Under the pieces are notes generated by a model. The model saw only the letters and a list, made by a program, of their open reading frames with translations, made no database searches and had not been told where the DNA came from. Position numbers and translations under genes: made by a program. 37,509 nucleotides of DNA from a virus. The first letter of the stretch is position 1. Every line of letters begins with the position of its first letter. The DNA lies in the IMG/VR virus record IMGVR_UViG_3300045009_001106, positions 1-37,509 of that record, one strand, 5' to 3'. Below, one piece after another: positions 741-36,482 of this stretch.

Positions 741-828
741 GGAGAGGTGGCAGAGTGGTTGAATGTACCTGACTCGAAATCAGGCGGACGGAAACGTCTC
801 GGGGGTTCGAATCCCCCCCTCTCCTCCA
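741..828 (+). tRNA. tRNA-Ser, anticodon CGA
   Basis: A complete class II tRNA folds by eye. The acceptor stem is GGAGAGG (741-747) with CCTCTCC (818-824). The anticodon stem CCTGA/TCAGG holds loop CTCGAAA (anticodon CGA, reads UCG). There is a long variable arm (GGACGGAAACGTCT) and the T-loop GTTCGAATC. CCA (826-828) is encoded. The discriminator base is T (825), where serine tRNAs usually have G, so the last bases may be phage-derived after integration. The integrase gene begins just beyond and reads toward the tRNA, as in phiCTX, which uses the 3' end of a tRNA-Ser gene. Confidence 0.96.
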
Positions 829-941: not shown

Positions 942-2048
942 TCAGCGCGTGGGATTCGTGACCTCGCCGCGGCGCCGATAAACCAGCTGCGTGATCTCTT
1001 CCTTCGAATGCCCGAGCAGTTTCGAGGCGGTCGCCAGGTCTTCCACGTCGCTCGCGGCCTTGGCTCGCGTGTCTCGGAACTGGTATTGCCGAATCCGGGC
1101 CGCCAGCACGTCGCGGCCGGCGTCCATCGCAGCGGCGATCGCCGCGTTGCGGGCGTCAGTGAAGCGCTTTCGGAGGGTGCCGCGATTCAGCACCAGACCG
1201 CCGCTGGTCATGAGCAGGTGGGCGCCACGGACCTTGCGAGACCGAATCCGGTCGATGACCTGGCCCAGGAAGTTCCGGGACCCATCGTTGACGAGGCGAA
1301 TCCGCAGCAGCTTGCCGGTCTTGCCCTGTCGCAGCTGGAGCTCCGTGTCAGTGAGGTTGTGGATCGTGAACTTCAGGACGTCGCCGGGCCGCTGGCCGGT
1401 GAGGTAGGCGAGGTCCATCGCATCCTGTAGTTCGGCCACCGCGGCGCCGTACACCGCTGCCCAGACCTCGTCGTCGACGTAGAAGTCCCGCGGCGTCTCC
1501 TTGTTCTTGGAGATGCCGGTTACCGGGTTGGCCTTGTCGGTGTAGCCCCACTCACGGGCCTTCGCCATCACGTGCGACAGCAGCGCAAGCTCACGATTCG
1601 CCGCGACCGGCGCCGGCTTGCCGCCAGGGTCGCGGACCGAGCCGTCAGCGCGCAGTCGTCGCTTCGTCTTGCGGTTGTCGCGATAGGCGGCCACATGGCG
1701 CGGGAGGATGGCGCCGATCGGGGCAGTGCCGAAGTGGGCCCGCAGGTTCTCGATCTCGGCGAGGTTGTTCTCCTGCGTGCGCGCTGCCTTCTTCGGAATC
1801 TCGTCGCGGATGTACTTGTCGAACAGAACGCTCATGGTCCCCGCCTCAGCGGGCACCGGCTTGCTCTCGTACTCGGCCCACTTCCGCTTCGCTGCGACCA
1901 GGTCGGTACCGAGCGGCAGCTCCTTGCGCTTGCCGTCGCTGTCGCGGCCGTCGTAGTAGTAGCCGATCCAGACCTTGCCACTCTTGAGCGTGCGTCGACG
2001 TTCGATCATGCGGGGCGGGAGACGCTTCCCGCTCAGACGCGCTGCCAT
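942..2048 (-). CDS. int: Phage integrase, tyrosine recombinase
   Basis: A 368-aa protein of usual integrase length, catalysing site-specific recombination between attP and the tRNA-Ser attB. The N-terminus (about 1-65) is an Arm-type binding region (VWIGYYYDGRDSDGKRKEL), about 66-165 is the SAM-like core-binding domain, and the rest is catalytic. Catalytic residues: R220 in TGQRPGD, K243 in QGKTGK, R328 in QFRDTR (the usual His of box II is replaced), H347 in LLGHS and nucleophile Y357 in LVYRR. Its ATG overlaps the stop of the upstream DUF4224 gene (ATGA), so the two are translationally coupled and int is the last gene of the leftward early operon. Confidence 0.96.
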   Translation of the reverse strand: MAARLSGKRLPPRMIERRRTLKSGKVWIGYYYDGRDSDGKRKELPLGTDLVAAKRKWAEYESKPVPAEAGTMSVLFDKYIRDEIPKKAARTQENNLAEIENLRAHFGTAPIGAILPRHVAAYRDNRKTKRRLRADGSVRDPGGKPAPVAANRELALLSHVMAKAREWGYTDKANPVTGISKNKETPRDFYVDDEVWAAVYGAAVAELQDAMDLAYLTGQRPGDVLKFTIHNLTDTELQLRQGKTGKLLRIRLVNDGSRNFLGQVIDRIRSRKVRGAHLLMTSGGLVLNRGTLRKRFTDARNAAIAAAMDAGRDVLAARIRQYQFRDTRAKAASDVEDLATASKLLGHSKEEITQLVYRRRGEVTNPTR

Positions 2049-2610: not shown

Positions 2611-2757
2611 TCATCGTTTCGGCGCGCGCCGGTAGGCCTTGAACTCGTCGTAGGCCCAGGACATCACGATGATCGGGCCGACGATGACGGCCGCCGCGGC
2701 CATGGCCACGATGAAGCAGCCGGCGAACATGTTGGCGGGGATGTCGGAGCGCTTCAT
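2611..2757 (-). CDS. Small single-span membrane protein
   Basis: 48 aa. MKRSDIPANMFAG is followed by a hydrophobic span (about residues 11-34, rich in Ala, Val, Ile) and a basic tail YRRAPKR, suggesting one transmembrane helix with the C-terminus cytoplasmic. The ATG overlaps the stop of the upstream gene (ATGA), so it belongs to the early operon. No function can be assigned. Confidence 0.55.
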   Translation of the reverse strand: MKRSDIPANMFAGCFIVAMAAAAVIVGPIIVMSWAYDEFKAYRRAPKR

Positions 2758-2975
2758 GGTCCGCCTCTCTGCGACAGCGCAGCGTCCAGCGCGACGGCAG
2801 CGGCGTCGATGGCCTTGCCGCACTCATCGCCGTGACCGTTCTCGTAGCCGGCCCAGAGCGCGGTATCGCAACCGTCGCAGGCGGTGGACAGCGCTTCGAG
2901 CATCTGTCGAGCGGCGGCACGCAAGGCCATCAGGTCGCCGCGCGAGGGAGCGCGGCGCTTGTTGTTCTTGGACAC
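2754..2975 (-). CDS. Small protein with CxxC motif, unknown function
   Basis: 73 aa with GTG start (2973-2975) preceded by GGGAGAG on the minus strand. Basic N-terminus (SKNNKRRAP), then a helical region and CDGCD...GHGDECG, which could bind a metal. Overlaps the next gene by ATGA and follows the StbB-like gene by 19 bp. Not recognised. Confidence 0.6.
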   Translation of the reverse strand: MSKNNKRRAPSRGDLMALRAAARQMLEALSTACDGCDTALWAGYENGHGDECGKAIDAAAVALDAALSQRGGP

Positions 2976-2994
2976 GTTCTCTCCCTCGGGTCCC

Positions 2995-3699
2995 TTATGC
3001 CTGCGCCAGGCCGGCCCAGACCAGGTCCAGCTCGTCCTGAGCGGACTCCGCCATGCCCAGGGTTGCGATCGCGCGCACCACGGCCAGGCGCTCCTCAGGC
3101 GATTTCGCGGTCTTGCGGGCCAGCTCGAGCTGGCCGAAGTCCTGCATCACGACCTCTGCGATCGTCTGACCCGACGCTGCCAGGCGGCCATAGACCTCGC
3201 TATCGCTGATGTGGCCAGGCACCACGCTTCCGCGCTTCGTGTCCGCCAGGTAGGCCAGCAGCGGGGCGAAGGCCGTCGAGGTGGTCTCGGTCGCCTCGAG
3301 GCCGTTCAGGATGACCTTCACCTTGTCGGACGGCACCCCGATCTGGGACAGCGCGTCGAGGGTGGCGATCGCGTCGCGGATCTGTTTGGCACCTGGCATC
3401 ACGGGGACCACGAAGGCGTCGAAGAGGTGATGGGAACGCCGGGTCTGGGCCAGACGCTGCAGCCAGTCCTCGACGTTGCTGGCGCCGACGTCGACGACGA
3501 CCCCGTTGTCGCTGATCGCGACCACGTCGAGCAGCTCGGTGAACTGGCGACCGCGCAGGGTGACGTCCTCCTTGCCGTCTGCGTTGATGCTTTCCACCGA
3601 GGCCAGCAGCGCACCAGGGATGCGCGGCGCGAAGAGGTTGCGGGCCAGGGTGGTCTTGCCGGCGTTGCCCGAGTAGGAGAGCAGGACGATGTTCTTCAT
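2995..3699 (-). CDS. StbB-family ParA-like ATPase
   Basis: 234 aa beginning MKNIVLLSYSGNAGKTTLAR. A P-loop (SGNAGKTT, residues 9-16) is followed by LFAPRIPGALLASVESINAD, closely resembling the N-terminus of StbB of plasmid R388 as I recall it. The mid-region DNGVVVDVGASNVEDWLQ is the expected Walker B-like region. StbB proteins are cytoplasmic P-loop ATPases of plasmid stability/conjugation operons. It follows the StbC-like gene by 5 bp, as in a two-gene stb operon. A stability function in a P2-type phage is unexpected: it may serve maintenance of an extrachromosomal form, or a phage process that reuses the fold. Confidence 0.8.
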   Translation of the reverse strand: MKNIVLLSYSGNAGKTTLARNLFAPRIPGALLASVESINADGKEDVTLRGRQFTELLDVVAISDNGVVVDVGASNVEDWLQRLAQTRRSHHLFDAFVVPVMPGAKQIRDAIATLDALSQIGVPSDKVKVILNGLEATETTSTAFAPLLAYLADTKRGSVVPGHISDSEVYGRLAASGQTIAEVVMQDFGQLELARKTAKSPEERLAVVRAIATLGMAESAQDELDLVWAGLAQA

Positions 3700-3704
3700 G
3701 GTGG

Positions 3705-4139
3705 TCAGGTCTTTCGATTGGGCTTGCTGGACAGCAGTCGCGTCAGCAGTGGGTTGTGGATCTTGTTGAGGTACCGGTCGCCCACGGCCTGGGCGCGATC
3801 CTTGAGGGTTGCGTCGGGCCCGGGTTGGGGATCGGCGCTTGGGTTCGTCGATGTCGTCCATGGCTGCTTTGCGGTTGCCTCTCCTTGCTTGTGGCTCGGC
3901 GGCGTGTCGCCGCTCGGTTGCCGGTTGATAGCCGGCGTCAACGCCGGTTCGGATGCCAGGGCCTTGGTCACGGCCTGGCGGGACACCTGGACGCCTTGGG
4001 CGGCCAACCAGGTGCGAATCTCTTGATGCGTGTAGCCAGCGTCGGAGAGCTGCTGCATCGCCTTCCGGTGCGGCGCGAGCGGTCCGCGCTTCGCCGGCGG
4101 GTTGCTTGCCATCCAGTCGTCGAGGGATGTCTCGGTCAT
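3705..4139 (-). CDS. StbC-like DNA-binding protein
   Basis: 144 aa. The N-terminal half carries a helix-turn-helix-like segment (about 25-62: HRKAMQQLSDAGYTHQEI, then WLAAQGVQVSRQAVTKAL), typical of StbC-like proteins that recognise DNA. The second half is low-complexity (Pro, Thr, Gln, Ser) and basic. It sits immediately before the StbB-like gene in the same operon. Likely an adapter or repressor for the ATPase; the target sequence is unknown. Assignment to StbC rests on neighbour and motif rather than full-length similarity. Confidence 0.65.
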   Translation of the reverse strand: MTETSLDDWMASNPPAKRGPLAPHRKAMQQLSDAGYTHQEIRTWLAAQGVQVSRQAVTKALASEPALTPAINRQPSGDTPPSHKQGEATAKQPWTTSTNPSADPQPGPDATLKDRAQAVGDRYLNKIHNPLLTRLLSSKPNRKT

Positions 4140-4149
4140 GGGCTCTCCT

Positions 4150-4446
4150 TCAGTCGTCGCGGTCAGCCGCGGCGGCGCGCTTTCGGTCTACGGCTTGCGC
4201 TCCCTCGCTTCGGTGGGGGTAGGGCCGGCGCGTCAGCGTTTGAGCCTTGGCGGCCCTTTCTGCTGTCTTGGCGGCGGCTCTGAGGTCGGTACCAGCGGCA
4301 ATGCGGAGCAGTCGCGAGATCAAGGGGTCGTTCATTGCCTCGAGAAAGTCGACCGGCCAGTGGTCTCGCCCGGGACGCATCCGGGTCCAGGCAGCACGGA
4401 GCTGGTCCTCGCGGAGTTCTGCGTGGGAGATGAAGAGGAGGCTCAT
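4150..4446 (-). CDS. Early operon protein, unknown function
   Basis: 98 aa starting MSLLFISHAELREDQL. Central DFLEAMNDPLISRLLRIAAG resembles the 'hNPLISRLL' segment also present near the C-terminus of the neighbouring StbC-like protein (NPLLTRLLSS), perhaps a shared short interaction motif. The C-terminus is basic and disordered. Start overlaps the stop of the preceding gene by ATGA. Confidence 0.6.
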   Translation of the reverse strand: MSLLFISHAELREDQLRAAWTRMRPGRDHWPVDFLEAMNDPLISRLLRIAAGTDLRAAAKTAERAAKAQTLTRRPYPHRSEGAQAVDRKRAAAADRDD

Positions 4447-4643
4447 CGCTGGGCTCCTTCTGAGCTGCTCGAAGCAGCAGCGCGCGCCGCGTCGACCAGG
4501 GCCTTGGCCAAAGCCGTGCCGAAGGTCCGGTTCAGCCGATCCGACTCCTCGGTCGCGATCCGCCGGCGCTCGAGCTCGAAGGTCAGGCGGACGTCAGTCG
4601 CGTACCACGGCGTGTAGGGCTTGCTGAGCTGGGGTTTGACCAT
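4443..4643 (-). CDS. Early operon protein, unknown function
   Basis: 66 aa from MVKPQLSKPYTPWYATDVRL to a Ser/Ala-rich tail. The ATG at 4643 is preferred to an upstream in-frame ATG that would overlap the neighbouring gene. Mostly helical and charged, no recognised domain. Coupled to the next gene by ATGA. Confidence 0.55.
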   Translation of the reverse strand: MVKPQLSKPYTPWYATDVRLTFELERRRIATEESDRLNRTFGTALAKALVDAARAAASSSSEGAQR

Positions 4644-4650
4644 GGCGACC

Positions 4651-4824
4651 TCAGGCGGCGGGACGAACGCGAAGGCGCACCAGGTCGTCACCCAACAGGC
4701 GGGCTGCGATCGCGGCGGCGCTGCAGCTGCAGCTCGTGACGATGACCAGGCGTCCACGCTGACCCGAGGACAGCTGGTACCGGGCGCGATAGCGGCGCGG
4801 ACGGTTCTTCTCGTGGTTCTGCAT
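4651..4824 (-). CDS. Small basic protein, unknown function
   Basis: 57 aa, MQNHEKNRPRRYRARYQL onward, strongly basic, ending VRLRVRPAA. A strong ribosome site (GGGAGGAAG) lies directly before the ATG. It follows the primase gene by 14 bp. Contains VTSCSCSAAAIAARLLG, resembling the small phage proteins that modify residue-by-residue uptake of long names such as Icd-like inhibitors, but not enough to name it. Confidence 0.5.
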   Translation of the reverse strand: MQNHEKNRPRRYRARYQLSSGQRGRLVIVTSCSCSAAAIAARLLGDDLVRLRVRPAA

Positions 4825-4838
4825 CTCTTCCTCCCTGT

Positions 4839-7571
4839 TCAAGCCCTGGCGGCCTTGTTGCGCTCGAAGGTCCAGCAATGCACGGCGACGGAGCGGACGT
4901 CGCGCTGCTCCTCGAGCTGGCCCCGGATGGCGCTGTTGACGTTCTTGATGTCCTTGAAGCGATGCAGCCGGCTGGTCTTCAGCACCTTCTTCAGGTCGCC
5001 GATCGACGGCACCTGCTGGTTGCGCTCGCGGGCAACCTGGATGAAGTGGTTGAGGTTGATCGCGATCTCCTCGTCGGGCTTGCGTGAGTGGTTCAGCGGC
5101 GCGCTGCCGCCGTCGAGGTACTCGTAGGCTTCCCAGAACTCCTGTACCAGCGGGTGGTCGCTGTTGATTGCCTGCTGGCGCTCAGTCGCCATGACCACGA
5201 TCTGCTCCTGCAGCGCCTGGTACTGCTCGTCGCTCAGCGGAACCACATGCCGCAGTGCGTCCGAGAGCGCGAGGAGCTGGGCGTGGTTCTTGGCGATACG
5301 CGTGCTGCGCACCTGCGGGTGCTCCAGCAGTGCGGCTTCGTGCTGCGACGTCCTGTCGGCGATCGTCTTCAGGATCTGCTCCTCGCGCTGCGCCGCGAGC
5401 AAGATGAAGCCGCTGACGTCCTCCACAGGCATCCCTTCAAGCGCAGTCGCGTCCTGGCGCGTCTTTGGCGTCTGGCGGGACTTGTCGAAGGTCAGGTGGA
5501 CGATCCGCTGCAGGATCGGGTCCGAGGCGTTGACTTCGTTGTTCTGGCTGATGACGATCGCGCCCCGGAACGGCGGCTCATACGTCTCGTTGCCGCCTGT
5601 CGCCATGCCGCGCGCGCGCACGCTGCGACCGTTGAAGGCGGTCTTGAGCTCGTCCCAGTCGAACGACTTCACGTGCGGCCCCTTCTCGCTTCCTAGGCGC
5701 TCGCGGTCGGACTCGATCAGCACGACGGGAAGGTTGCTCACCTGGGCGAAGTTCCGGGCACGTGCGGCCAGCGAGGACTTGCTGGGGTCGAAGCCCTCAT
5801 AGTCGCGACGGCCGCAGAGCTTCCACAGGAACTCGATCAGCGTGGACTTGCCGGCGCCGGCCTCGCCGACGATCTCCAGGAACGGGAAGGACTTCTGCGT
5901 GGCGCGTATCTGTTCGGCGAACAAGGCGCCGAGCCAGAAGGTGAGGGCGGCCAGGCCCTTGGCGCCGAAGCAGTTCCAGAGCAACCCGAGCCAGTCCGCG
6001 TTGTACTCGGCCAGGTCGCGGTTGATCGTGAGCTGGACGGACTGGTTGAGCGACTTCAACGACAGGTTGCCCATGTCGAAGTAGTCCTCGGCGTTGATCT
6101 CGTACTGGCGGCCAGCCTTCACGGCGGTGTCACCCAGGACGAAGGCCGCGTGCTCCCGCGAGTAGCCGATGAAGTCGATCGTCTCGACGCGCTGGATGTT
6201 GTAGAGCTGGCGCTCCATCATCCGCTCGAGCATCTGGCTCGTGCCGGTAAAGACCGCGCCAGGCGCGAGATGCAGCAGTCGCTTCTTGAACTCCGCCGCC
6301 GCGCTCAGGTGCGAGCTGGTGAAGGTGTTCTTCACCGCTGGCGCGTCGTGCGGGAAGTCGACGCGGAAGTAGTACCAGCTCTCGTCCGTGAGCGCGTTGC
6401 GCTGGTAGTAGAGCGGCGCGGGAAGGCAATTGGCGATCGGGCGAATGTTGTGCGCCTTCTTCAGCGCCTCCTCGCGGATCTCGTCCTCGTCCAGGCGGCC
6501 CTCGTTGCCCTCCTCGAGGGCGCGCAGGGCCCGATCGAAGGCTTCCAGATCCAGCTTGAACCAGTACAGGCGCTTGCGGTACGCGACGTCGAACTCGGTC
6601 TTCTGGCCGCCGGAATGGCGGTAGATCTCCAGCGCCTTCTCACCAGCGGAAGGGGCGATGAGAAGCGCACCGTGGTGGCGGTACTCCTTGAAGTCCTCGG
6701 GCTTGAGGCGATCACGCAGAAGCAAGTCATTCCAGTCCACCTTGCCCCGCGCGGGCTGGGGGATCTGCGCCGCCTCGCACGCCCAGCCGTCCTTTCGAGC
6801 GCGCTCGACGTGCTTGAGGGTGAAGGACTGCCCGGCCTTGTCGCCATCGAGGCCGAAGACGAGGCGGGGGAAGGGGCGGCCAGCCGCAAGGCAGTCCAGC
6901 CTCAGCTTCTCCAGCGCCTGATCGGGATAGTTGTTGCAGCTCAGCAGGGCCGTCGCGTTGACGCCGGCATGGCCGAGCGCGATCGAGTCGAAGATGCCCT
7001 CGACCATCCACAGCTCCTCGGCTTCCGAGGGCGTGAAGCTCGGAGGACACCACCAGGTGCCCTGGTAGCTCATGCCTGGCTTGAACATGGCCTTCTTCTT
7101 GCCGAAGCGGGCCGTGCGGTCGATCAGACGTTCCCAGTGGCCGGTACCCACTGCGAAGCGAACTGTCGCGCTGCCGGCGCCCTTGCCGTTGTCGGCCTGG
7201 CGGTCGAAGTGGGTCTCCTCGGAGTACCAGCCCTTGATGAACGCCAGGTCGAAGCCGCGCGCCTGCTGCAGGTACAGATCGGCAGCGGCGTTCGGGTTGG
7301 CGGCCTTCAGCGGCTCGGCGCGCTTGCTCCAGTCTTCGAAGAGGAACGGGTAGAGATCCTTGACGTGGGCCTCGTAGCCGCAGTTGTTGAGGCGACCGCA
7401 ACGGACGATCCAGGGCTTGTCCTCACTGACATACAGCTCCTTCTTCCTGCATGACGGGCACTCTCCCTGCCGCAGCCAACCATTCTTCGTCGTCTTGAAG
7501 CGGAACTCGCCGAGCTCTTGCAGCACCTCGCGACGCAGTTCCTGCTGACGCTTCTCCAACTCGTGATTCAC
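4839..7571 (-). CDS. Phage DNA primase-helicase (zinc finger, TOPRIM, P-loop ATPase)
   Basis: 910 aa with GTG start (7569-7571) overlapping the upstream stop as GTGA. The zinc-binding region has C38, C41, C58 and C64. The TOPRIM domain has E191 (VEGIFDS) and D242-x-D244 (LDGDKAG). The helicase domain has Walker A GEAGAGKST (569-577), then LPVVLIESD and the sensor-like GAIVISQNN. It primes and unwinds phage DNA. It occupies the position where P2 has the rolling-circle endonuclease gene A, and no such endonuclease is seen. Replication is therefore likely theta-like or host-assisted rather than P2 rolling circle. Fourth of the upstream group in a leftward operon. Confidence 0.92.
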   Translation of the reverse strand: MNHELEKRQQELRREVLQELGEFRFKTTKNGWLRQGECPSCRKKELYVSEDKPWIVRCGRLNNCGYEAHVKDLYPFLFEDWSKRAEPLKAANPNAAADLYLQQARGFDLAFIKGWYSEETHFDRQADNGKGAGSATVRFAVGTGHWERLIDRTARFGKKKAMFKPGMSYQGTWWCPPSFTPSEAEELWMVEGIFDSIALGHAGVNATALLSCNNYPDQALEKLRLDCLAAGRPFPRLVFGLDGDKAGQSFTLKHVERARKDGWACEAAQIPQPARGKVDWNDLLLRDRLKPEDFKEYRHHGALLIAPSAGEKALEIYRHSGGQKTEFDVAYRKRLYWFKLDLEAFDRALRALEEGNEGRLDEDEIREEALKKAHNIRPIANCLPAPLYYQRNALTDESWYYFRVDFPHDAPAVKNTFTSSHLSAAAEFKKRLLHLAPGAVFTGTSQMLERMMERQLYNIQRVETIDFIGYSREHAAFVLGDTAVKAGRQYEINAEDYFDMGNLSLKSLNQSVQLTINRDLAEYNADWLGLLWNCFGAKGLAALTFWLGALFAEQIRATQKSFPFLEIVGEAGAGKSTLIEFLWKLCGRRDYEGFDPSKSSLAARARNFAQVSNLPVVLIESDRERLGSEKGPHVKSFDWDELKTAFNGRSVRARGMATGGNETYEPPFRGAIVISQNNEVNASDPILQRIVHLTFDKSRQTPKTRQDATALEGMPVEDVSGFILLAAQREEQILKTIADRTSQHEAALLEHPQVRSTRIAKNHAQLLALSDALRHVVPLSDEQYQALQEQIVVMATERQQAINSDHPLVQEFWEAYEYLDGGSAPLNHSRKPDEEIAINLNHFIQVARERNQQVPSIGDLKKVLKTSRLHRFKDIKNVNSAIRGQLEEQRDVRSVAVHCWTFERNKAARA

Positions 7572-7936
7572 GCGGCGCCTTTCAGTTGGTAGACGCACAC
7601 GCAGAGGCGCAGGGCCCCCTTAGTCAGCGCGACCAGGCTGACACCGAGGAAGTTCTCGCGCGATGCCTCGACGTAGCCCAGTGCGATCAGCTCGGCGTGG
7701 AAGCGGTTGGCGTCGTCGCGGCACGCGAGGTGAATCGAAAGCGAGGCCGGAAACGGGATCCAGAGGATCTGCTCGGGTTGCGGAGCGATCTGGCGCTGCT
7801 CCAGCGCAGGCAGGTCGAGCTCGAACAGCTCCAGGCTTCGCCGCATTGCTCGCAGATCGCGGATGCGAGCGGCATAGGCGTTCGACGCGTCGAGAACGGC
7901 TCGGGAGTACAGCCGCTGCTTCGGGTCGCTGTTCAT
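7568..7936 (-). CDS. Early operon protein, unknown function
   Basis: 122 aa, MNSDPKQRLYSRAVLDASNAY onward. The middle (IAPQPEQILWIPFPASLSIHLACRDDANRF) suggests a small mixed alpha/beta domain; the C-terminus is hydrophobic (RLCVCVYQLK). A GAAAGG ribosome site precedes the ATG. It is translationally coupled to the primase gene (TGA/GTG overlap), so it may be a replication accessory. Confidence 0.65.
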   Translation of the reverse strand: MNSDPKQRLYSRAVLDASNAYAARIRDLRAMRRSLELFELDLPALEQRQIAPQPEQILWIPFPASLSIHLACRDDANRFHAELIALGYVEASRENFLGVSLVALTKGALRLCVCVYQLKGAA

Positions 7937-8046
7937 CGGGGAAGACCTTTCAGGATGAGCGCTGCCCGCGGTGCCTCCAAACAGGCATCGCTAGGCGGGG
8001 ATTCGTAGGGATAAGGGGTAGGGCTAGCTACCCGGGGACACGTGGA

Positions 8047-8370
8047 TCAGGGGCCGTGCGCGGCGCCTTCGAAGAGATCCAGGTTTCGCGCCGGAGCGTC
8101 CGCCTCGCGGACGGTCGATACCGGCGCGACGTCGAGCTGCACCGTGAGCAGGCGTCGCTCGACGTGCGGGCTGAGGGGAATGTTCACCTGTGGGTTCGGC
8201 ATGGCGCTGGGCGACAGCGTGCGCATGACCTCCAAGCCGGCAACGTAGGTGTGACCGCAGAGCACGTTCGTGCATTGGTAGGTCACCTCTCGCATCGTCA
8301 CCGTCATCTCACGGCTCTTCACCGCTCGGGCGCGGGAAGTGCAGTGCGGGCACTTGATCGTCACTCTCAT
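8047..8370 (-). CDS. ogr: Ogr/Delta-type zinc-finger activator of late transcription
   Basis: 107 aa. The first 50 residues carry C7-x2-C10 and C33-x4-C38 (KCPHC ... YQCTNVLCGH), the Ogr/Delta zinc-finger pattern, followed by the YVAGLEV segment matching P2 Ogr. Family members activate phage late promoters by binding a dyad near -55 and contacting RNA polymerase alpha. The start is ATG at 8370, overlapping the stop of the upstream gene. Longer than P2 Ogr (72 aa) through a 50-residue non-conserved tail. In P2 ogr lies beyond D at the att end; here it is inside the early operon. Confidence 0.9.
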   Translation of the reverse strand: MRVTIKCPHCTSRARAVKSREMTVTMREVTYQCTNVLCGHTYVAGLEVMRTLSPSAMPNPQVNIPLSPHVERRLLTVQLDVAPVSTVREADAPARNLDLFEGAAHGP

Positions 8371-8558
8371 TTGCGTGCCCCCCTTGGCACAAGATAGAGG
8401 GCTCTCCCTCGGCCCGTAATGCTGCGCACGGAGCGGCGCAGCCTGCTCTTGAGCAGCCACTCCGCTGCTTGCTCCACCGTGTCGAGCCCTTGCTGCAGAC
8501 GGACGCGCTCAAGCACGTCGCGGTCGGCTTCGTTAATGGCGATCTGCAGCTCGGGCAT
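8367..8558 (-). CDS. Small helical protein, unknown function
   Basis: 63 aa, MPELQIAINEADRDVLERVR then LDTVEQAAEWLLKSRLRR. The pattern (short beta strand then two helices) looks like a ribbon-helix-helix or related fold. ATGA overlap with ogr suggests coupled production. Confidence 0.6.
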   Translation of the reverse strand: MPELQIAINEADRDVLERVRLQQGLDTVEQAAEWLLKSRLRRSVRSITGRGRALYLVPRGARK

Positions 8559-8603
8559 GGGTAGCTTTTCGTCAGACGTTGATGCGCTTGATAAAGCCTG
8601 GAA

Positions 8604-8795
8604 TCAGGCCGCGCTCGTGTCGACACTGGCGCTACCAGCCAGCACCTGTTGAGCCTCGCGCAGCACCAGCTCGCGAACCATCGTGCTCGGCTGATCCCCC
8701 TGGTAGTTCGCCAGAGCTTCGATCAATGCGTACTCGTAGTCGTCCAGTCGCAGGGTGATGCGGTTGTCTCGGACGCGCTTCGGGTCTGGATACAT
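8604..8795 (-). CDS. Ribbon-helix-helix-like protein
   Basis: 63 aa, MYPDPKRVRDNRITLRLDDY, then EYALIEALANYQGDQPSTMVRELVLREAQ. The strand RITLRLDDYEYALIEALA followed by a second helix is a CopG/Arc-type dimerising DNA-binding pattern. GAAGG precedes the ATG. Second gene of the early operon, so it may be a Cro/Apl-like regulator. Confidence 0.7.
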   Translation of the reverse strand: MYPDPKRVRDNRITLRLDDYEYALIEALANYQGDQPSTMVRELVLREAQQVLAGSASVDTSAA

Positions 8796-8848
8796 GGGTG
8801 CCTTCGAAATGACAGAACAGGACCGATGAACAGAAGGGAGAGGGAGCC

Positions 8849-9064
8849 TCAGGAAATCGACTTGCCGGCCTCAAAGGCCTTGAGGGCGTAGAGCACGAGC
8901 AGCCTGGCGAAGGCCGCGTCGGTGCGCTGCTCCTTCTGCGCTCCTGCCTTCAGGCGCTTCAGCTCGTCTTCGTAGAGCCGCAACGAAACCGGGCTGCGCG
9001 TCAGCACGCCAGTCGGGGCGCGACTCTTCTTCTCGGGCACTCGTTTCGTTGCAGCTTTGGGCAT
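8849..9064 (-). CDS. First gene of the early operon, ribbon-helix-helix-like
   Basis: 71 aa. A basic leader (MPKAATKRVPEKKSRAPTG) precedes SPVSLRLYEDELKRLKAGAQ and a helix (AAFARLLVLYALKAFEAG), again a strand-helix-helix pattern. It is the first gene after the divergent operator, the position of cro/cox-type regulators in temperate phages. Role is inferred from position. Confidence 0.65.
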   Translation of the reverse strand: MPKAATKRVPEKKSRAPTGVLTRSPVSLRLYEDELKRLKAGAQKEQRTDAAFARLLVLYALKAFEAGKSIS

Positions 9065-9097
9065 GGATGCTCAGCAGCTTCCGAGGAAACGGTGTGT

Positions 9098-9154
9098 ATC
9101 CTCAGGATGTGGATGGATGCACAAATTGTGTCCCACGAATGTGGGATTCGTCAA
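9098..9154 (-). promoter_or_regulatory. Early promoter and operator between repressor and early operon
   Basis: On the minus strand TTGACG (9149-9154) and CACAAT (9125-9130) are 18 bp apart. Three palindromes overlap or follow: CACAAATTGTG (9120-9130) over the -10, TCCCAC-GAAT-GTGGGA (9131-9146) filling the spacer, and ATCCT-C-AGGAT (9098-9108) downstream. Repressor binding in the spacer would block the early operon. Confidence 0.55.
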
Positions 9155-9497
9155 CACGCATGGTTGCAAATTGAGTGATTTTGGAGATCGTCTGCGTGAA
9201 GAGCGCACGCGACTGAAGCTGAATCAGATCGAGTTCGGAGAACTCGGTGGGGTGTCGAAAAACGCCCAGCTCAGCTACGAAAAGGCGGAGCGTCGGCCTG
9301 ACGCGGACTACCTCATGCGCCTGGTGCCGCATGGGGTGGATGTGCACTACCTTCTCACTGGCGTACATGCCGGTCATGCGCAGTCGCCGTTGCCGGTGAC
9401 GCACAGCGAGGCGTTGCTCCTGCTCGGGTCGCTGACGGAGGAGCGTCTTCGCGCAGTGTTGGTTGTCCTTGAAGGGCTGGCTGAAGCAAGCCGATAG
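9117..9497 (+). CDS. XRE-family repressor (cI/C-like)
   Basis: 126 aa from ATG 9117, the only in-frame ATG with an AGGA upstream. A TTG at 9171 (giving SDFGDRLREERTRLKLNQ) is an alternative and matches where homologues normally start. The helix-turn-helix lies in about residues 20-75 (LKLNQIEFGELGGVSKNAQLS), with HYLLTG typical of short phage repressors. The rest is a short dimerisation tail; no peptidase domain, so induction is not by LexA-like self-cleavage. It is divergent from the early operon and convergent with D. Predicted lysogeny maintenance. Confidence 0.82.
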   Translation: MHKLCPTNVGFVNTHGCKLSDFGDRLREERTRLKLNQIEFGELGGVSKNAQLSYEKAERRPDADYLMRLVPHGVDVHYLLTGVHAGHAQSPLPVTHSEALLLLGSLTEERLRAVLVVLEGLAEASR

Positions 9498-9527
9498 AGC
9501 CGCGCTGCGCATCGATTGAGCCCGATC

Positions 9528-10568
9528 TCAGCGCTCGTCCGCGGCGCTGTCCGCAACGGCGACTTGGGTCGATGTTGCGCTGGCCGTCTCCAGCTCGATG
9601 CGAGTCGTCAGTCCGCCGTCGCCCAGGCTGTGCGTGGCCTTCACGGTCAGCCATGACACGGCGTCGATCGCCGGCTTGAACCCCGCCACCGTCACCGGCG
9701 TCTGAGGTCCCAGCTCGGGACGACCGCGCGCCAAAGTCAGCTCCATCGTCGCGGCCCCGCGTTGGATGCGCTGCCATTCGGCTTTCGCACCTGCGAGCGC
9801 ATCGGCCTGGTTGGCATAGGTGTCGCGCAGCCGCTTCGCGTTGCCGCTGAGCCCCACCAAGACGCCGCGGCGCTTTGCCCGCTTCGCGTCATGCCAGTAC
9901 GCACGGACCCCGCTGTAGGCCTCACGCTCGGCGGAGTGGAAGCGGTGGCTGTCGCCGGCGTCGCGTGAGATGGTCTGCGGGCTAAGCGTTTTGCCCCGGC
10001 TGTCTCGCGTGCCGTTGATGGGCACGAAGATCAGCGACCCCTTCTTGACGGTCGACACGGCGTCGTAGCGCTTGGCAAGGCGCGAGACAAAGTTGAGGTC
10101 GCTCTCATTGGTCTGATCGATGTGATCGACGACCGTGGCGGCCAGGCGCTTGTCGATGCGGGGCGTGAGGCCATGCTTCGCCGCGATCGATCCGACGATC
10201 ATGCCGAGGGTCTTCTGATGCCAGCTCTTCTCGACGCGGACCTTGATCGTCTGCGCCATGTCCGCGCTGCGGGCCCGAACCTGGAGCTGGTCCGGGGCCC
10301 CGCTGTGCTCCACCTCGTCGACGACAAATGTGCCCTTGTCGACCAGCGCCTGGCCGGCCCACCCAAGTTGCAGTGAGATCGTGGCCTTCTTCGGAGGAAT
10401 CGCGAGCCGCCCGTCGGTGTCGTCGAGCACCAGGTCGAGCTGGTCGGCCTCACCGCCACGGCACTCGGTCAGGCTGAGGCTGATCAGCCGTGGATTGATC
10501 TTGACCGTGATGTCGGTGCCGTCGACCACCAGGCGGTAGTCCGGCATGGGATGGCTGCTCCGGCTCAC
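9528..10568 (-). CDS. D: Tail hub/late control protein D
   Basis: 346 aa. The N-terminus PDYRLVVDGTDIT followed by RLISLSLTECRGGEADQLDLVLDDTDGRL is the P2 gpD pattern, and IPPKKATISLQLGW continues it. GpD forms the baseplate hub (gp27-like) with gpV, at the base of the tail tube. The gene is the last of the FI operon and overlaps U by 4 bp (ATGA). Length is normal (P2 D about 387 aa). Confidence 0.93.
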   Translation of the reverse strand: MSRSSHPMPDYRLVVDGTDITVKINPRLISLSLTECRGGEADQLDLVLDDTDGRLAIPPKKATISLQLGWAGQALVDKGTFVVDEVEHSGAPDQLQVRARSADMAQTIKVRVEKSWHQKTLGMIVGSIAAKHGLTPRIDKRLAATVVDHIDQTNESDLNFVSRLAKRYDAVSTVKKGSLIFVPINGTRDSRGKTLSPQTISRDAGDSHRFHSAEREAYSGVRAYWHDAKRAKRRGVLVGLSGNAKRLRDTYANQADALAGAKAEWQRIQRGAATMELTLARGRPELGPQTPVTVAGFKPAIDAVSWLTVKATHSLGDGGLTTRIELETASATSTQVAVADSAADER

Positions 10569-11017
10569 TGGTCGGCTCCTGCTTCCGCTGGGCCCGCTTC
10601 GCTTGCCGAGGGCTCATCGACGCCAAGCTCGGCGCCCTCGTCTTCGTCGACGCGGATCAGCTGGATCTGGAACTCGATGCGCCGTGCACTGCCGTCCTGC
10701 ATGAAGACGGTGTGCGTCTCGTTCAGGCTCTCGATCACGAATGCACCGATGACCTCGCCGTTGCCAGACACGAGCGGCCAGGCGTGACCCGCGTCTGCCA
10801 TCTCGCGCAGCTGATCCAGGCTCGCGACGTCGCCTGCGAACTCTGGCGCCACGACGCCGGAGAGGTTGATCGTGTCCTCACCCGGGCCGAGGAACTGGCG
10901 CGCCGGCCTGGCGCCCACGCGGCTGTTGCTGGGATGGCGCCAGGCGGACTGCCGCTGCAGGTCCTGGTAGGCCAGCGTCGGCAGGCTGAAAACGAACTGT
11001 CCGTAGCCCATCATCAT
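10565..11017 (-). CDS. U: Tail protein U
   Basis: 150 aa, starting MMMGYGQFVFSLPTLAYQDL. WRHPSNSRVGARPARQFLGPGEDTI is the signature of P2 gpU, a tail-tube/terminator-associated protein. Its position between the tape measure and D is as in P2. Ends in an acidic tail. Confidence 0.93.
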   Translation of the reverse strand: MMMGYGQFVFSLPTLAYQDLQRQSAWRHPSNSRVGARPARQFLGPGEDTINLSGVVAPEFAGDVASLDQLREMADAGHAWPLVSGNGEVIGAFVIESLNETHTVFMQDGSARRIEFQIQLIRVDEDEGAELGVDEPSASEAGPAEAGADQ

Positions 11018-11029
11018 GGTGAGATCTCC

Positions 11030-13636
11030 TTAGCTGATGTCGCTGAGGCTCGACCGCCGGGCCGCGAGCTTCGAGCGCTCGCGTCGATCCAGCTCGGCGG
11101 CAACCAGGCGCGCGATCGTGCGCTCGTCCATGCCAGGTGCAGCGTGGATGTGGATCTCGTACTTGTCGCCGGGGGCTGCTGGTGCGGCGGTGGCCGGCGC
11201 GGACAGCGGGGGCCTGCGGTCCATCTGGACCGACGGAGCTGCAGACATGGGACCGGCGCCCGGCGCAGCGCTCATCGCCGCCGCAGGCATTGCAACGGTG
11301 GCGCCAGCCGCCATCGCCATGACCGCACGGCGGACGCTGTCCTGACGGTTGGCAACGCCGGCGGCGGCGCCGTTGGAGATCTCCTCGCCGGCGTCGATGA
11401 AGACCCGGCTCGGGCTGCGGATGCCCAGCCTCTCCTTGAACCACCCGATCGCGCCGTCTGCTGCACCGCTGATGGCGTCTCGCACCAGCGCCAGGCGGCT
11501 CGTGATCCCGCCGGCGAGCCCTTGAAGGATGTTCGCGCCGAACTCGCTGAACTTCTGCGGCAGATCGAAGCCAAACCAGCGCAGCACCCCTGCGAACGCT
11601 TGGTAGAACATGCCCAGCGGCGACCAGTTCACCAGCAGTGCCGACACGCCGCCGATGCCCCCTGCGAACGCCTGCCGGATGCTGTTCCAGATGCCGCCGA
11701 AGAAGCTCTTGATGGGTTCCCAGTAGCGGATGAGCAGGAAGGCGGCCAGCGCGATCGCAGTGATCGCCAGGCCGATTGGCGTGGTCATCAGCGCTCGTCC
11801 GATCCAGAGGACCGCCTGGCCGGCGATCCGGAGCACGGTGCCGATCCGCCCGATAACCGATGCGACGCCGACACCGTTGATGCTCAGCATCGCCATGCCG
11901 TAGCGCAGCAGCGCGAAGGGGCCGATCAACGAAGCCAGGGCGACCGTGACCGTACCGCCAACGATCAGGAGGACGGAGAGGGCGGCGGCCGCCTTCATGA
12001 TGAAGGTCACCAGGCCAGGGTGCGCAGCGGCGAACGCCGCCAGCTTCGACGCCATGGCCCCCAGCGTGGTCATGAGGTCGACGAGGGCGGGCTTCAAGGA
12101 CTCGCCAAGCGTGGTCGTGAGCTCGAAGGCGCGGTTCTTCGCCATGGTCCACTGCGCCGACGTCGTCTGGTTGCGGGCGTCTGCTTCTCGCCGCATCGAG
12201 CCCTTCGCCGCGGTGCCGTTCGCGAGCTCGCGCTGCCGCGCCAGCTCCTCGGGTTTGTCAACCAGCTTCGCCAGCGTGTCGGAGTGCTCCAGACCGACGA
12301 GCTCGACCATGACCCCGACGCGCTGGCTCTCCGGAAGCTTGCGGATGCCAGCGATGACCTTGTCGAAGGTCGCCGATGCGTCTGTCGCCATGCCCTGCTG
12401 GATGTCGTTGCTCTTCAGGCCGATCTCGTCGACGGCGGCCTGGAACTTCTTCGTGCCCTTGGTGGCGGCGGCCAGCTTCTGCGTGATCGCGTTGATGGCA
12501 GTGGCTGCGGTCTCTGGACGTTCACCCAGCGTGAGCAGCGTGGACGACAGCGCGGCAGCGTCCTGCGCGCTCATCTTGACCGTCGAGACCACGCCCGAGA
12601 TCCGGTTCAGGACGTTGATGATCTCGTCGCCCTTGGAGATCGCGTTGTCGTCGAGGTAGTTGATCGAGTCGGCCAGGCTCTCGATCTGCAGGATGGGGAT
12701 CTTGAAGTTCTTGGCGACCTTGCCCATCTGCTCGGCGATCTCGCCCGGCACGGCGTCGAACGCCGTCGCCATCATGGCGGCCGTTCGCGTGAACTCCTTG
12801 AGCTGGTCGGTTCCGACCTCCATGCGAGCGCCGGCGGTGACCATGTCGGCGATCTCGTTGGTCGTCAGGGGGATCTCTCGGCCCAGCTCGCGGACCTGTT
12901 GCCGGACAGCGGCGTAGACGGCTGTCAGCCGGCCGGCATCGTCGCGTGCGCCTTGCACCTGGCGTGCGACACCCAGCATGTGGTCCTCGAAGGAGGCGAA
13001 GTCCCGCACTGCGATCGCAACCGGCGCACCGATTGCGGCGCCTGTGGCACCCATGGCCACGCCTGCGCCGGTGAGCTTGCCCTGCAGGGCCTGGGCCTTG
13101 GCCAAGGCCGCGCCGGCTGCGGCACTTCGGCGCTGGTGTTCGGCCTGCTCGCGCAGCGCAGCCGTCTGTCGTTCGATGCTCGCCGTGGTCGACGCGATGC
13201 TGGCGCGCAGGTCTCGTTCGTGGGTGGCAAGGTCACGGGTGCTGATGCCAGCGGCGCTGAGACGGTCGCGGACGACCTGGAGCTGCACGCTCTGGCGTTG
13301 GTGCTGTTCGGCCAGGTCGCGGGCGACTTGGCGCGCCGCACCGAGCTGGGCCGTCATCGCCTTGGTGGGCGGGCCGACCTGGCTGAGCTCGCGCGCCAGC
13401 CTGGCGGCCTTCTCCCGGGCGTTCTCGAGCTTGGCACCGGTGGCGTCCAGGCCGGTGCGCATCTCGCGGAACTCGCCGATCGCCTTCTGCTGGGTGCCCA
13501 GCTCCTTGAGGCGTTCGCGCGTCTCGCGCAGCGCCTTGGCGGTCGCCGTGCTGCCGGCGTTGATCCGCTGCAGAGGCGCCGTAGCGCGGTCAATTGCCTG
13601 AAGGATCACCTGCAGGCGCAGGTCGCTCATTGCCAT
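11030..13636 (-). CDS. T: Tail tape measure protein T
   Basis: 868 aa. The N-terminal 250 residues are mainly coiled-coil with repeated Ala/Glu/Arg heptads. A TP901-type tape measure core follows (about 270-480: AMMATAFDAVPGEIAEQMG and VSTVKMSAQDAAALSSTLLTLG). Hydrophobic stretches near 530-640 (ALSVLLIVGGTVTVALASLIG) fit membrane-inserting segments, and the C-terminus is Ala/Pro-rich. It sets tail length, chaperoned by E/E'. Starts 6 bp after the E' stop. Confidence 0.95.
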   Translation of the reverse strand: MAMSDLRLQVILQAIDRATAPLQRINAGSTATAKALRETRERLKELGTQQKAIGEFREMRTGLDATGAKLENAREKAARLARELSQVGPPTKAMTAQLGAARQVARDLAEQHQRQSVQLQVVRDRLSAAGISTRDLATHERDLRASIASTTASIERQTAALREQAEHQRRSAAAGAALAKAQALQGKLTGAGVAMGATGAAIGAPVAIAVRDFASFEDHMLGVARQVQGARDDAGRLTAVYAAVRQQVRELGREIPLTTNEIADMVTAGARMEVGTDQLKEFTRTAAMMATAFDAVPGEIAEQMGKVAKNFKIPILQIESLADSINYLDDNAISKGDEIINVLNRISGVVSTVKMSAQDAAALSSTLLTLGERPETAATAINAITQKLAAATKGTKKFQAAVDEIGLKSNDIQQGMATDASATFDKVIAGIRKLPESQRVGVMVELVGLEHSDTLAKLVDKPEELARQRELANGTAAKGSMRREADARNQTTSAQWTMAKNRAFELTTTLGESLKPALVDLMTTLGAMASKLAAFAAAHPGLVTFIMKAAAALSVLLIVGGTVTVALASLIGPFALLRYGMAMLSINGVGVASVIGRIGTVLRIAGQAVLWIGRALMTTPIGLAITAIALAAFLLIRYWEPIKSFFGGIWNSIRQAFAGGIGGVSALLVNWSPLGMFYQAFAGVLRWFGFDLPQKFSEFGANILQGLAGGITSRLALVRDAISGAADGAIGWFKERLGIRSPSRVFIDAGEEISNGAAAGVANRQDSVRRAVMAMAAGATVAMPAAAMSAAPGAGPMSAAPSVQMDRRPPLSAPATAAPAAPGDKYEIHIHAAPGMDERTIARLVAAELDRRERSKLAARRSSLSDIS

Positions 13637-13641
13637 GCGGC

Positions 13642-19271: not shown

Positions 19272-19335
19272 CGGAATGAGAGAGGGCGCCGCGAGGGCGC
19301 CCGGGTACTGCTGAGGGTGGGGCGTGCTGCGGCGC

Positions 19336-32306: not shown

Positions 32307-32337
32307 GAGTTGCGGGTCTATCGGCGACCGGCAACTC
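32307..32337. promoter_or_regulatory. Dyad between divergent O and P operons
   Basis: GAGTTGC (32307-32313) and GCAACTC (32331-32337), perfect halves 17 bp apart, centred about 72-75 bp from both start codons. Position suits an activator of the two late promoters (Ogr binds near -55). Confidence 0.5.
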
Positions 32338-32393
32338 CGCGCGCAGGCCCCTATCCATCGCGCATACGCGCGTGCGCCCATACCCTCGGTGCC

Positions 32394-34190
32394 ATGAATT
32401 CGCAAGCCGCCGAAGCCCTGCCGACTCCACGCGAGAAGCCGGCCGAGGGCGTCAATGCAGACAAGCGCCGCACCGCGCGTCACCTCTACTGGCAGGGGTG
32501 GCGCGTGTCGTCGATCGCCGAGTGGATCGGCGAGCCACGCTCCACCGTTCAAGGTTGGAAGGATGCGGAGGCGTGGGACAAGGCCCAGCCCATCGAGCGC
32601 GTCGAGGGCGCGCTGGAGACGCGCCTGGTGCAGCTCATCGCCAAGGACCAGAAGACCGGCGGCGACTTCAAGGAGATCGACCTGCTGGGCCGCCAGGTCG
32701 AGCGCTTGGCACGCGTGCGCAAGTACGAGAAGTCGGGCAAGGAGTCGGACCTCAATCCCAACATCGAGGGGCGCAACGAGGGACCGAAGAAGAAGCCCGA
32801 GCGCAACCACTTCAGCGATGAGGCGATCGAGAAGGTGCAGTCAGCCTTCAAGGACTCGCTGTTCGGCTACCAGAAGGTCTGGCTGCGCAACGGGCACCAG
32901 CGCACGCGCATGATTCTCAAGTCGCGGCAGATCGGCGCCACCTGGTACTTCGCGCGCGAAGCCCTTATCGACGCGATCGAGACGGGGCGCAATCAGGTCT
33001 TCCTGTCGGCGAGCAAGGCTCAAGCGCACATCTTCAAGCAGTACATCCTGCAGTTCGCTGCGGAGTCCTGCGGCGTCGAGCTGGCCGGCGATCCCATCGT
33101 GCTGTCCAACGGCGCGCACATCTACTTCCTGGGCACCAACGCGCGCACCGCTCAGGGCTACCACGGGAACTTCTACTTCGACGAGTTCTTCTGGACCCAC
33201 CGCTTCGAGGAGCTGAACAAGGTCGCCTCGGGCATGGCCATGCACAAGCAGTGGCGCAAGACCTACTTCAGCACGCCCAGCTCGATCCAGCACGAGGCGT
33301 ACCAGTACTGGAGCGGCGACAAGTTCAACAAGCGCCGCGCCAAGAACGACCGCCTGCCGTTCGACCTCAGCCACCATCGGCTCGGGGGTGGTGGCTTCAC
33401 TGGCGAGGACAAGGTCTGGCGCAACATCGTCAACATCATCGACGCCGCGAGCAGCGGCTGCGATCTGTTCGACATCGATGAGCTGCGCCTCGAATACACG
33501 CCCGAGGAGTTCGAGAACCTGCTCATGTGCGGGTTCATCGACGACACCTACAGCGTCTTCCCGCTGTCTGAGCTGCAGCGCTGCATGGTCGACAGCTGGG
33601 AGGCTTGGGACGACGTCAAGCCGTTCTCGCTGCGTCCGTTCGGGCACCGGCCCGTCTGGGTCGGCTACGACCCGTCCCACACCGGCGACACCGCCGGCTG
33701 CGTGGTGATCGCGCCCCCTGCGACGCCGGGAGGCAAGTTCCGCGTCCTCGAGCGCCACCAGTTCAAGGGCATGGACTTCGAGGCACAGGCGGACTCGATC
33801 CGCAAGATCACCGAGCGCTTCAACGTGCAGCACATCGGCATCGACACGACGGGGCTGGGGCAAGGCGTCTACCAGATCGTGCAGAAGTTCTATCCGGCAG
33901 TGAAGGCGATCAACTACTCGCTGGAGACGAAGACGCGCCTGGTCCTCAAGGCCAAGAGCGTGATCACCAAGGGACGGTTGGAGTTCGATGCGGGCTGGGT
34001 CGACCTGGCGCACGCGTTCCTCGCCATCCGCCGGACCCTGACCGCGAGCGGGCGCAGCGTCACCTACGACGCAGGCCGCAGCGAGGAGACGGGGCATGCA
34101 GACCTAGCCTGGGCCTGCATGCACGCATTGGACAACGAGCCCCTGGAGGGCTTCACGCTGCAGAGCCGCAGCATCATGGAGATCTCGTGA
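32394..34190 (+). CDS. P: Terminase large subunit P
   Basis: 598 aa. An N-terminal HTH region (about 20-55: HLYWQGWRVSSIAEWI) precedes Walker A-like SRQIGAT (177-183), Walker B YFDE (261-264) and the nuclease GYDPSHTGDTAG (D426). ATP-driven packaging motor with M. Start chosen at MNSQAAEALPTP; overlaps Q by TGATG. Confidence 0.96.
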   Translation: MNSQAAEALPTPREKPAEGVNADKRRTARHLYWQGWRVSSIAEWIGEPRSTVQGWKDAEAWDKAQPIERVEGALETRLVQLIAKDQKTGGDFKEIDLLGRQVERLARVRKYEKSGKESDLNPNIEGRNEGPKKKPERNHFSDEAIEKVQSAFKDSLFGYQKVWLRNGHQRTRMILKSRQIGATWYFAREALIDAIETGRNQVFLSASKAQAHIFKQYILQFAAESCGVELAGDPIVLSNGAHIYFLGTNARTAQGYHGNFYFDEFFWTHRFEELNKVASGMAMHKQWRKTYFSTPSSIQHEAYQYWSGDKFNKRRAKNDRLPFDLSHHRLGGGGFTGEDKVWRNIVNIIDAASSGCDLFDIDELRLEYTPEEFENLLMCGFIDDTYSVFPLSELQRCMVDSWEAWDDVKPFSLRPFGHRPVWVGYDPSHTGDTAGCVVIAPPATPGGKFRVLERHQFKGMDFEAQADSIRKITERFNVQHIGIDTTGLGQGVYQIVQKFYPAVKAINYSLETKTRLVLKAKSVITKGRLEFDAGWVDLAHAFLAIRRTLTASGRSVTYDAGRSEETGHADLAWACMHALDNEPLEGFTLQSRSIMEIS

Positions 34191-35218
34191 TGGAAACGAT
34201 CGAAGCCGCCGCGCAGGCGAGTAGTGGCGCCGCAGGCGTTCAGGCATTCACGTTCGGCGATCCGGTGCCCGTGATGGACCGCGTCGAACTGCTCGACTAC
34301 CTGGAGTGCGGGCTGGTGGGGAAGTGGTACGAGCCGCCGGTGAGCTGGGAGGGGCTTGCCAAGAGCTTCCGCGCCAGCACGCACCACAGCAGCAGCATCT
34401 ACTTCAAGCGCAATGTGCTGGTGTCGACGTTCAAGCCTCACAAGCTGCTGAGCGCCGACACCTTCGGCGCGCTGGTGCTGGACTTCCTCACGTTCGGCAA
34501 CGGCTACCTGGAGCGCCCGCGCGCGCTGACTGGCCGCGCGCTCGAGCTGCGGCACGCGCTCGCGAAGTACGTGCGGCGTGGCGCGGATCTGGAGACGTAC
34601 CACTTCGTGCGGCGCTGGGGCGATGACCACGAGTTCGCCGCGGGCTCGGTGTTCCACATGCGCGAGGCCGACATCAACCAGGAGGTGTATGGGCTGCCCG
34701 AGTACCTCAGCTCGCTGCAGGCCGCCTGGCTGAATGAGTCGGCCACGCTGTTCCGGCGCCGCTACTACAACAATGGGAGCCATGCCGGCTTCATCATGTA
34801 CATCAGCGACCCGGCGCAGCAGCAAGACGACATCGACGCGATTCGCCAGGCGCTGAAGGACAGCAAGGGGCCGGGCAACTTCCGCAACCTGTTCCTGTAC
34901 TCGCCCAACGGCAAGAAGGACGGCGTGCAGCTCATCCCGGTCAGCGAGGTGGCCGCGAAGGACGAGTTCTTCAACATCAAGAACGTGAGCAGGGACGATG
35001 TGCTTGCGGCGCATCGCATCCCACCTCAGCTCCTGGGCATCGTGCCTGGCAACACGGGCGGCTTCGGCGCGGTGCTGCCAGCGGCGAAGGTCTTCGCGCG
35101 CAATGAGATCGAGCCGCTGCAGACGCGCTTTCGCGCGATGAATGACTGGATGGGCGACGAGGTGGTCCGGTTCGATCCTTACATCATCGAGCTGGCTGGC
35201 GAGGGCGGCGAGTCGTGA
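34190..35218 (+). CDS. Q: Portal protein Q
   Basis: 342 aa. FGDPVPVMDRVELLDYLECG, FKPHKLLSADTFGALVLDFL and MYISDPAQQQDDIDAIRQALK are P2 gpQ signatures. Dodecameric portal at the capsid vertex. Its stop overlaps a following short ORF. Confidence 0.96.
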   Translation: METIEAAAQASSGAAGVQAFTFGDPVPVMDRVELLDYLECGLVGKWYEPPVSWEGLAKSFRASTHHSSSIYFKRNVLVSTFKPHKLLSADTFGALVLDFLTFGNGYLERPRALTGRALELRHALAKYVRRGADLETYHFVRRWGDDHEFAAGSVFHMREADINQEVYGLPEYLSSLQAAWLNESATLFRRRYYNNGSHAGFIMYISDPAQQQDDIDAIRQALKDSKGPGNFRNLFLYSPNGKKDGVQLIPVSEVAAKDEFFNIKNVSRDDVLAAHRIPPQLLGIVPGNTGGFGAVLPAAKVFARNEIEPLQTRFRAMNDWMGDEVVRFDPYIIELAGEGGES

Positions 35219-36422: not shown

Positions 36423-36482
36423 GCAACCCAAGGCCACTGGCGCGCAACCGCTCTGCAACCTCGCGGCAACCGTTTGGCAACC
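36423..36482 (+). repeat. GCAACC repeats with 11-bp phasing
   Basis: GCAACC at 36423, 36444, 36455, 36466 and 36477. The last four are exactly 11 bp apart, so on one face of DNA; the first is 21 bp before. A likely protein-binding array. It lies about 215 bp on the portal side of the cos-like site. Confidence 0.65.

Follow-up and report, generated by a model that had tools for sequence, protein, structure and literature searches.

Why would a phage that integrates into the chromosome carry a gene pair known from conjugative plasmids? The question is raised by a 37,509-nt IMG/VR virus contig, IMGVR_UViG_3300045009_001106, which was analysed over its whole length (positions 1-37,509) and is called the window below. 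In plasmids, StbAB is thought of as balancing vertical stability against conjugation. The IncW plasmid R388 has the gene order stbA-stbB-stbC, of which StbA is a DNA-binding protein and StbC is dispensable. StbA bound to its repeats gives the plasmid a stable, nucleoid-associated distribution, while StbB, dispensable for stability and required for conjugation, gives access to the poles; StbA without StbB blocks transfer. The verified StbA site is TTGCATCAT with an 11-bp period and a 2-nt spacer, its motif also occurs in further R388 promoters, and StbB is defined by a deviant P-loop, SGxxGK[T/S] (all from Guynet et al. 2011, PMC3098194).

The locus in the window is a StbA-StbB module as found in conjugative plasmids and ICEs, which a P2-like temperate phage lineage has captured. 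This identity is well supported, and what the module does for the phage is what we infer below. New here is the presence of StbAB, known from conjugative plasmids, in a chromosomally integrating phage together with a docking-site-like array, which suggests active DNA positioning. In the literature searched, which left out most subscription journals and preprints, no description of StbAB from an integrating phage came up.

Identity of the gene pair

Both open reading frames of the pair predicted at 2995-4139 are present on the minus strand, separated by exactly 5 bp (3700-3704). The downstream frame is open over 2995-3861, and its in-frame ATG at 3699 gives a 234-aa protein (MKNIVLLSYSGNAGKTT...SVESIN...) in whose translation the predicted SGNAGKTT P-loop and SVESIN segment are both seen. 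The NCBIfam StbB model NF041292 matched residues 3-230 of this protein at E 7e-60, its 202.3 bits narrowly exceeding the curated cut-off of 200; a Pfam search gave no family above cut-off. By tblastn (E <= 1e-3), the window StbB matched 1,478 plasmid records. All of them fall short of 60% identity, the best plasmid StbB reaching ~42% across 99% of the length, and a search of 50,697 phage records yielded nothing. Across 12 aligned StbB sequences, the window's among them, residues G11, G14, K15, E36, N39, D70, G72, S74 and N75 are invariant, which makes the P-loop and the VESIN segment features of the family; the window protein has both the deviant P-loop SGxxGK[T/S] and the invariant DxGxSN. 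Its structure model (pLDDT 90.6) has the ParA/Soj/MinD fold, and the closest solved folds are the ParA partition ATPases ParF/TP228, with ParF best at E 5e-8. A BFVD fold search returned nothing at E <= 0.001. The family model, plasmid identity, alignment, tree and fold all identify the protein as a full-length member of the conjugative-plasmid StbB family, as the original prediction had it; the unrelated ATPase families that were to have counted against that prediction did not emerge from the full-length comparison.

The name given to the partner gene did not hold. The HTH gene had been called StbC, a label that is ruled out by gene order, since plasmid stbA precedes stbB and plasmid stbC lies downstream of it; the HTH gene is directly upstream of stbB on the same strand and thus in the StbA position. 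In the plasmids read, a small gene of HTH type or annotated as 'hypothetical' is found directly upstream of stbB, while in the pIE321 record the gene upstream of stbB is absent from the listing. An hhalign comparison with a plasmid/phage StbA profile gave 96.0% probability for a four-sequence alignment (A4) and 84.9%, over 37 columns covering the HTH, for two phage sequences alone, which shows distant homology of the window protein to StbA at the level of profiles. A profile of 12 StbA-position proteins, in which plasmid proteins dominate, finds the R388 StbA domain 7PC1 at 4e-17; 7PC1 was not among the hits when the window protein or A4 was searched directly against the PDB. The window StbA is divergent (10-27% identity in alignment A2). 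It had a single plasmid match at E <= 0.1, with 30.5% identity, and on its own no match in IMG/VR or among the phage records. Its structure model was poor (pLDDT 55) and was not used.

Two loci with similar names were also considered. The stbCBA genes of P. syringae were rejected as members of the same family, as their products are described as a ribbon-helix-helix protein, a VapC-type protein and a resolvase (PMC6354349). For a D6-like plasmid prophage, a gene named stbB, which may or may not belong to this family, is listed beside parM (PMC6799933).

Phage setting and gene order

The P2-like prophage context of the original prediction was confirmed. PHROGs identified tail and baseplate families, and the P2-type genes of the window further include those for sheath, tape measure, terminase, portal and capsid. 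Its relatives are Peduoviridae, and P2 order is kept among the genes for capsid, terminase, tail and late control. The features relevant to the locus are collected in Table 1.

Table 1 Features of the window relevant to the StbAB module.
Feature	Position	Strand	Basis or remark
tRNA-Ser(cga)	741..828	+	beside integrase; likely left attachment side
Tyrosine integrase	942..2048	-	
Small ORF directly downstream of stbB	2754..2975	-	position of plasmid stbC; no family above cut-off
stbB, ParA/MinD-superfamily ATPase, R388-type StbB group	2995..3699	-	SGNAGKTT P-loop; family model, alignment, tree, fold
stbA-position HTH protein, 144 aa	3705..4139	-	conserved HTH and C-terminal NPL motif; position, alignment, profiles
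orf98	4150..4446	-	10 bp upstream of stbA; no family above cut-off
Small ORF between primase and orf98	4443..4757	-	true start probably further in
Primase/helicase (phrog_1139)	4839..7598	-	first long gene upstream of the pair, same strand
Ogr/Delta-like late activator (phrog_603)	8047..8460	-	
Terminase P and portal Q	32310..35218	+	array ~1.2 kb past portal end
HicB-like antitoxin; HicA toxin	35465-35884; 35995-36210	-	cargo between portal gene and array
Candidate StbA docking array (stbDR-like)	36423..36482	-	four GGTTGC at exactly 11 bp and a fifth 21 bp on; stbA strand

The pair is located in a slot between the primase and integrase genes, and the order on the minus strand is primase, small ORF, orf98, stbA, stbB. 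The shared strand and the final gaps of 10 and 5 bp make it likely that stbAB is co-transcribed with the phage primase. The relaxase families Relaxase PF03432 and TrwC PF08751 were both searched for and neither was found in the window; stb operons of conjugative or mobilizable elements adjoin oriT/MOB genes. A chromosomal fragment upstream, at 64-621, is presumably seryl-tRNA synthetase. In the search for an attachment repeat, no stretch of at least 12 bp from the tRNA-Ser region (741-840) was found to recur elsewhere in the window; the right att site is therefore probably outside the record, and the prophage may be incomplete. Within the tail gene region, a weak PD-(D/E)XK endonuclease match below cut-off (17866-18411) lies beside a DNA methyltransferase gene (18468-19367), a pair that looks like restriction-modification cargo.

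The same pair was found in the same slot of a P2-like prophage in Mitsuaria sp. GD03876. This prophage is 86% identical to the window at the nucleotide level over window positions 2937-13691, and the protein identities are 94% for StbB, 86% for StbA and 91% for the primase. Between the two prophages, dN/dS (NG86) was 0.074 for stbB, 0.102 for the primase gene, 0.083 for T and 0.126 for D. Phage stbB is thus under strong purifying selection, and stbA, with a value of 0.40, is less constrained. A close relative devoid of StbAB (the G179 prophage, primase 79-80% identical) aligns with the Mitsuaria prophage on both flanks of the pair; its slot holds unrelated DNA of 0.69 kb, compared to 1.64 kb in Mitsuaria. 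These alignments show the StbAB module filling what appears to be an accessory slot. Neither StbB nor StbA was found near the primase in the best 80 of at least 598 IMG/VR primase relatives, among which 44 loci reach the whole slot.

A phased repeat array near the opposite end

The candidate docking array lies past the portal gene. GGTTGC is the sole 6-mer with a four-copy phased array in the 37.5-kb window, and a four-copy array of this type, at any period of 8-24, appeared in none of 40 shuffles and in none of 60 order-2 Markov replicas. In the Mitsuaria prophage, where an array was looked for because of the one in the window, eight [A/G]GTTGC units (one mismatch allowed) are present at the matching place and strand relative to stbA; the bases around the array align poorly between the two prophages. 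Chains of at least three [A/G]GTTGC units were absent from all eight StbAB-less records with a homologous primase, seven of which were shown to be P2-like (the other, G153, has the primase and no P2 structural match in 60 kb). Similarly, no array was found beside the terminase in 80 neighbourhoods, 47 of which extend far enough past the portal.

Beside stbA itself no array was detected in the window by TRF, 9-mer clustering or lag correlation, and the stb promoter region holds no phased direct repeats of the kind associated with StbA. The scan did recover plasmid stbA promoters with 11-bp-phased repeats from IncW, IncI2, IncN and Paraburkholderia. Of 50 stb loci, 20 have phased arrays upstream of stbA that exceed all 20 shuffles, some narrowly, and 30 do not; those above all shuffles include TTGCA in nine and in five copies and GGTTGA in four.

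A link between the array and StbA is suggested by the period, the core motif and the orientation, and by co-occurrence in a small sample (2 of 2 StbAB-bearing prophages against 0 of 8 others), in which the two positive prophages are related by descent (86-88% nt) and do not count as two independent events. The phage locus resembles stbABC of R388 (IncW) and of IncN, IncI2 and Xanthomonas in its adjacent genes for an HTH protein and a deviant-Walker-A (SGxxGK[TS]) ATPase, in a StbB 42% identical to that of the IncW relative pIE321, and in 11-bp-phased repeats with a TTGC core, the period and core of the R388 StbA sites. It differs in that the repeats lie near the opposite end of the element and not in the stb promoter, no relaxase was found (two families), no stbC is recognisable and the carrier integrates.

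Proposed role of the module

Tentatively, and with slightly more doubt than belief, we read the captured StbAB module with its relocated docking array as positioning excised or replicating phage DNA. StbA would bind the array at 36423-36482 as R388 StbA binds its stbDRs (TTGCATCAT, 11-bp period), and stbAB would be switched on along with the early replication genes upon infection or induction. When the excised genome circularises, both prophage ends would meet and bring the array and the stb genes together. Array-bound StbA would then tether the phage DNA to the nucleoid, and the StbB ATPase would counteract StbA or move the StbA-bound DNA. Phage DNA outside the chromosome would in this way be positioned, or divided between the daughter cells, ahead of integration or packaging. 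It is also possible, at a lower level of confidence and rather against our expectation, that a centromere-like array evolved near the opposite map end such that the StbAB system becomes complete only once the genome is excised and circular, which would provide an actively positioned extrachromosomal stage (a phage-plasmid-like phase or positioned replication before packaging).

The extrachromosomal stage that we infer here is strengthened by the array being present in both StbAB-bearing P2-like prophages and in none of the eight StbAB-less relatives. Since no relaxase of the two families was detected, the conjugative half of the R388 StbAB role has no evident object. The parts that remain, an ATPase, an HTH partner and a phased array on ends that join on circularisation, favour extrachromosomal positioning. 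Against it, an integrated prophage needs no partition, the array is not beside stbA, stbA is the less constrained gene of the pair, and R388 StbB serves conjugation whereas the phage has no detected relaxase. ParABS of the phage-plasmids P1 and N15 likewise consists of an ATPase, a DNA-binding protein and cis repeats; StbA, however, is not ParB, and the window phage integrates, unlike phage-plasmids of the P1/N15 type. If positioning is true, active placement of phage DNA within the cell would be part of the life of some P2-like prophages, a stage seldom considered for integrating phages. The finding of StbAB under selection in phages where no relaxase was detected sets its role in DNA positioning apart from conjugation and provides a natural test of how StbA and StbB act by themselves.

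The main rival to positioning is transcriptional control of the right-end cargo, with StbA acting mainly as a transcription regulator that binds the array in the cargo promoter, StbB modulating it, and the cargo silenced or timed with the early operon. The location of the array, just upstream of the cargo and on the cargo strand in both prophages, is consistent with such control, as is the occurrence of the StbA motif in other R388 promoters. The cargo, however, is HicA/HicB in the window and a 528-aa ORF in the Mitsuaria prophage, wholly different genes beside an array that is kept, and the window ORF overlapping the array (36226-36645) has no Pfam match and is a doubtful gene. Control of the cargo is considered unlikely, if deserving of weight.

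The array could also consist of replication-origin iterons unrelated to StbA, with StbAB as a passenger. The RGTTGC four-copy pattern was found in 95 IMG/VR stretches, several of which resemble replication-origin iterons by eye, and in 80 of the 95 searched by tblastn (1e-3) neither StbA, StbB nor the P2 proteins tested were found. Such 11-bp, iteron-like RGTTGC arrays in unrelated StbAB-less phages fit this explanation, and they weaken any specificity of the array for StbAB. With up to two mismatches, an RGTTGC array occurs in 6 of 399 family-level genomes, only one of them beside StbAB. The [A/G]GTTGC motif alone is not diagnostic of StbAB. On the other hand, the array is missing from eight relatives with a homologous primase, one of them 79-80% identical; the strong purifying selection on stbB likewise argues against a passenger. 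We regard iterons as improbable. In the unrelated phages (IMG/VR stretches L091-L170) the arrays are often followed by GGATAG/TAGATAAG-like runs and resemble replication iterons inside initiator genes.

Distribution and phylogeny of StbB

StbB was found in 2 of 16 genomes of the Mitsuaria genus, 38 of 399 of the family and 2 of 369 of the class, each count including Mitsuaria itself. The integrated elements and plasmids of this family, whose class as ICE or plasmid was assigned by gene reading, carry the same StbB family, often with a stbA-like gene upstream. Genes resembling mobilisation relaxases were seen by eye in two of the four family loci read, and a small conjugation gene panel gave no match in 27 family StbB loci. 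P2-like phages carry anti-competitor genes in slots of this kind. That habit, the frequency of StbB-bearing elements in the host's family (38 of 399 genomes) and the block to transfer described for R388 StbA when StbB is absent would fit phage StbA/StbB acting on co-resident conjugative plasmids or ICEs by disturbing their positioning or transfer (exclusion or competition), to which we give very little credence, as the phage has its own candidate docking array and the early-operon position favours action on phage DNA.

The window StbB alone found no relative in IMG/VR, and an alignment query found StbB in ten IMG/VR contigs. The viral status of these contigs rests mainly on the IMG/VR label; phage-type genes are carried by L018, L022 and L023, and a terminase match was obtained in two of the ten records with the one terminase family searched. 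In contigs L017-L023, which represent other phage types, StbB mostly has a StbA-like gene upstream. The StbB tree unites the window, Mitsuaria, viral contig L017 and remnant L059 in a 100/100 clade with a stem of 1.43 changes per site, so that phage StbB forms its own long, fully supported branch outside the elements of the Mitsuaria family. The StbBs of viral contigs L018, L020 and L021 nest instead within the IncW/Xanthomonas plasmid group. These two separate positions indicate that phage-classed contigs took up StbB more than once, the L018/L020/L021 proteins representing an acquisition separate from that of the window's phage StbB.

Further observations were made on individual StbB contigs. 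L026 (1-1838) has a 23-copy phased GGGACA array upstream, and, by eye, a nearby ORF resembles a BREX protein; although a terminase matched, it is uncertain whether the contig is viral. A small ORF shortly downstream of stbB (48-49% identical; L017 10672-10989, L027 11642-11887, L059 10099-10335) is present in three of four members of the phage StbB clade, has no family above cut-off and was not seen in the window. In L017 the StbA gene is split between two frames. A two-gene cargo by the stb end of the contig (11219-12852) matches DHHC and DUF4747 weakly, below cut-off, and is possibly a defence-type module. In L059 the StbB is decayed, and a ~130-bp direct repeat (8843-8969 and 14988-15119) flanks the decayed StbB-bearing element. 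As this repeat matches DNA beside the StbAB prophage of Mitsuaria (concatenate 42106-42236), the L059 element and the Mitsuaria prophage seem to use the same chromosomal site.
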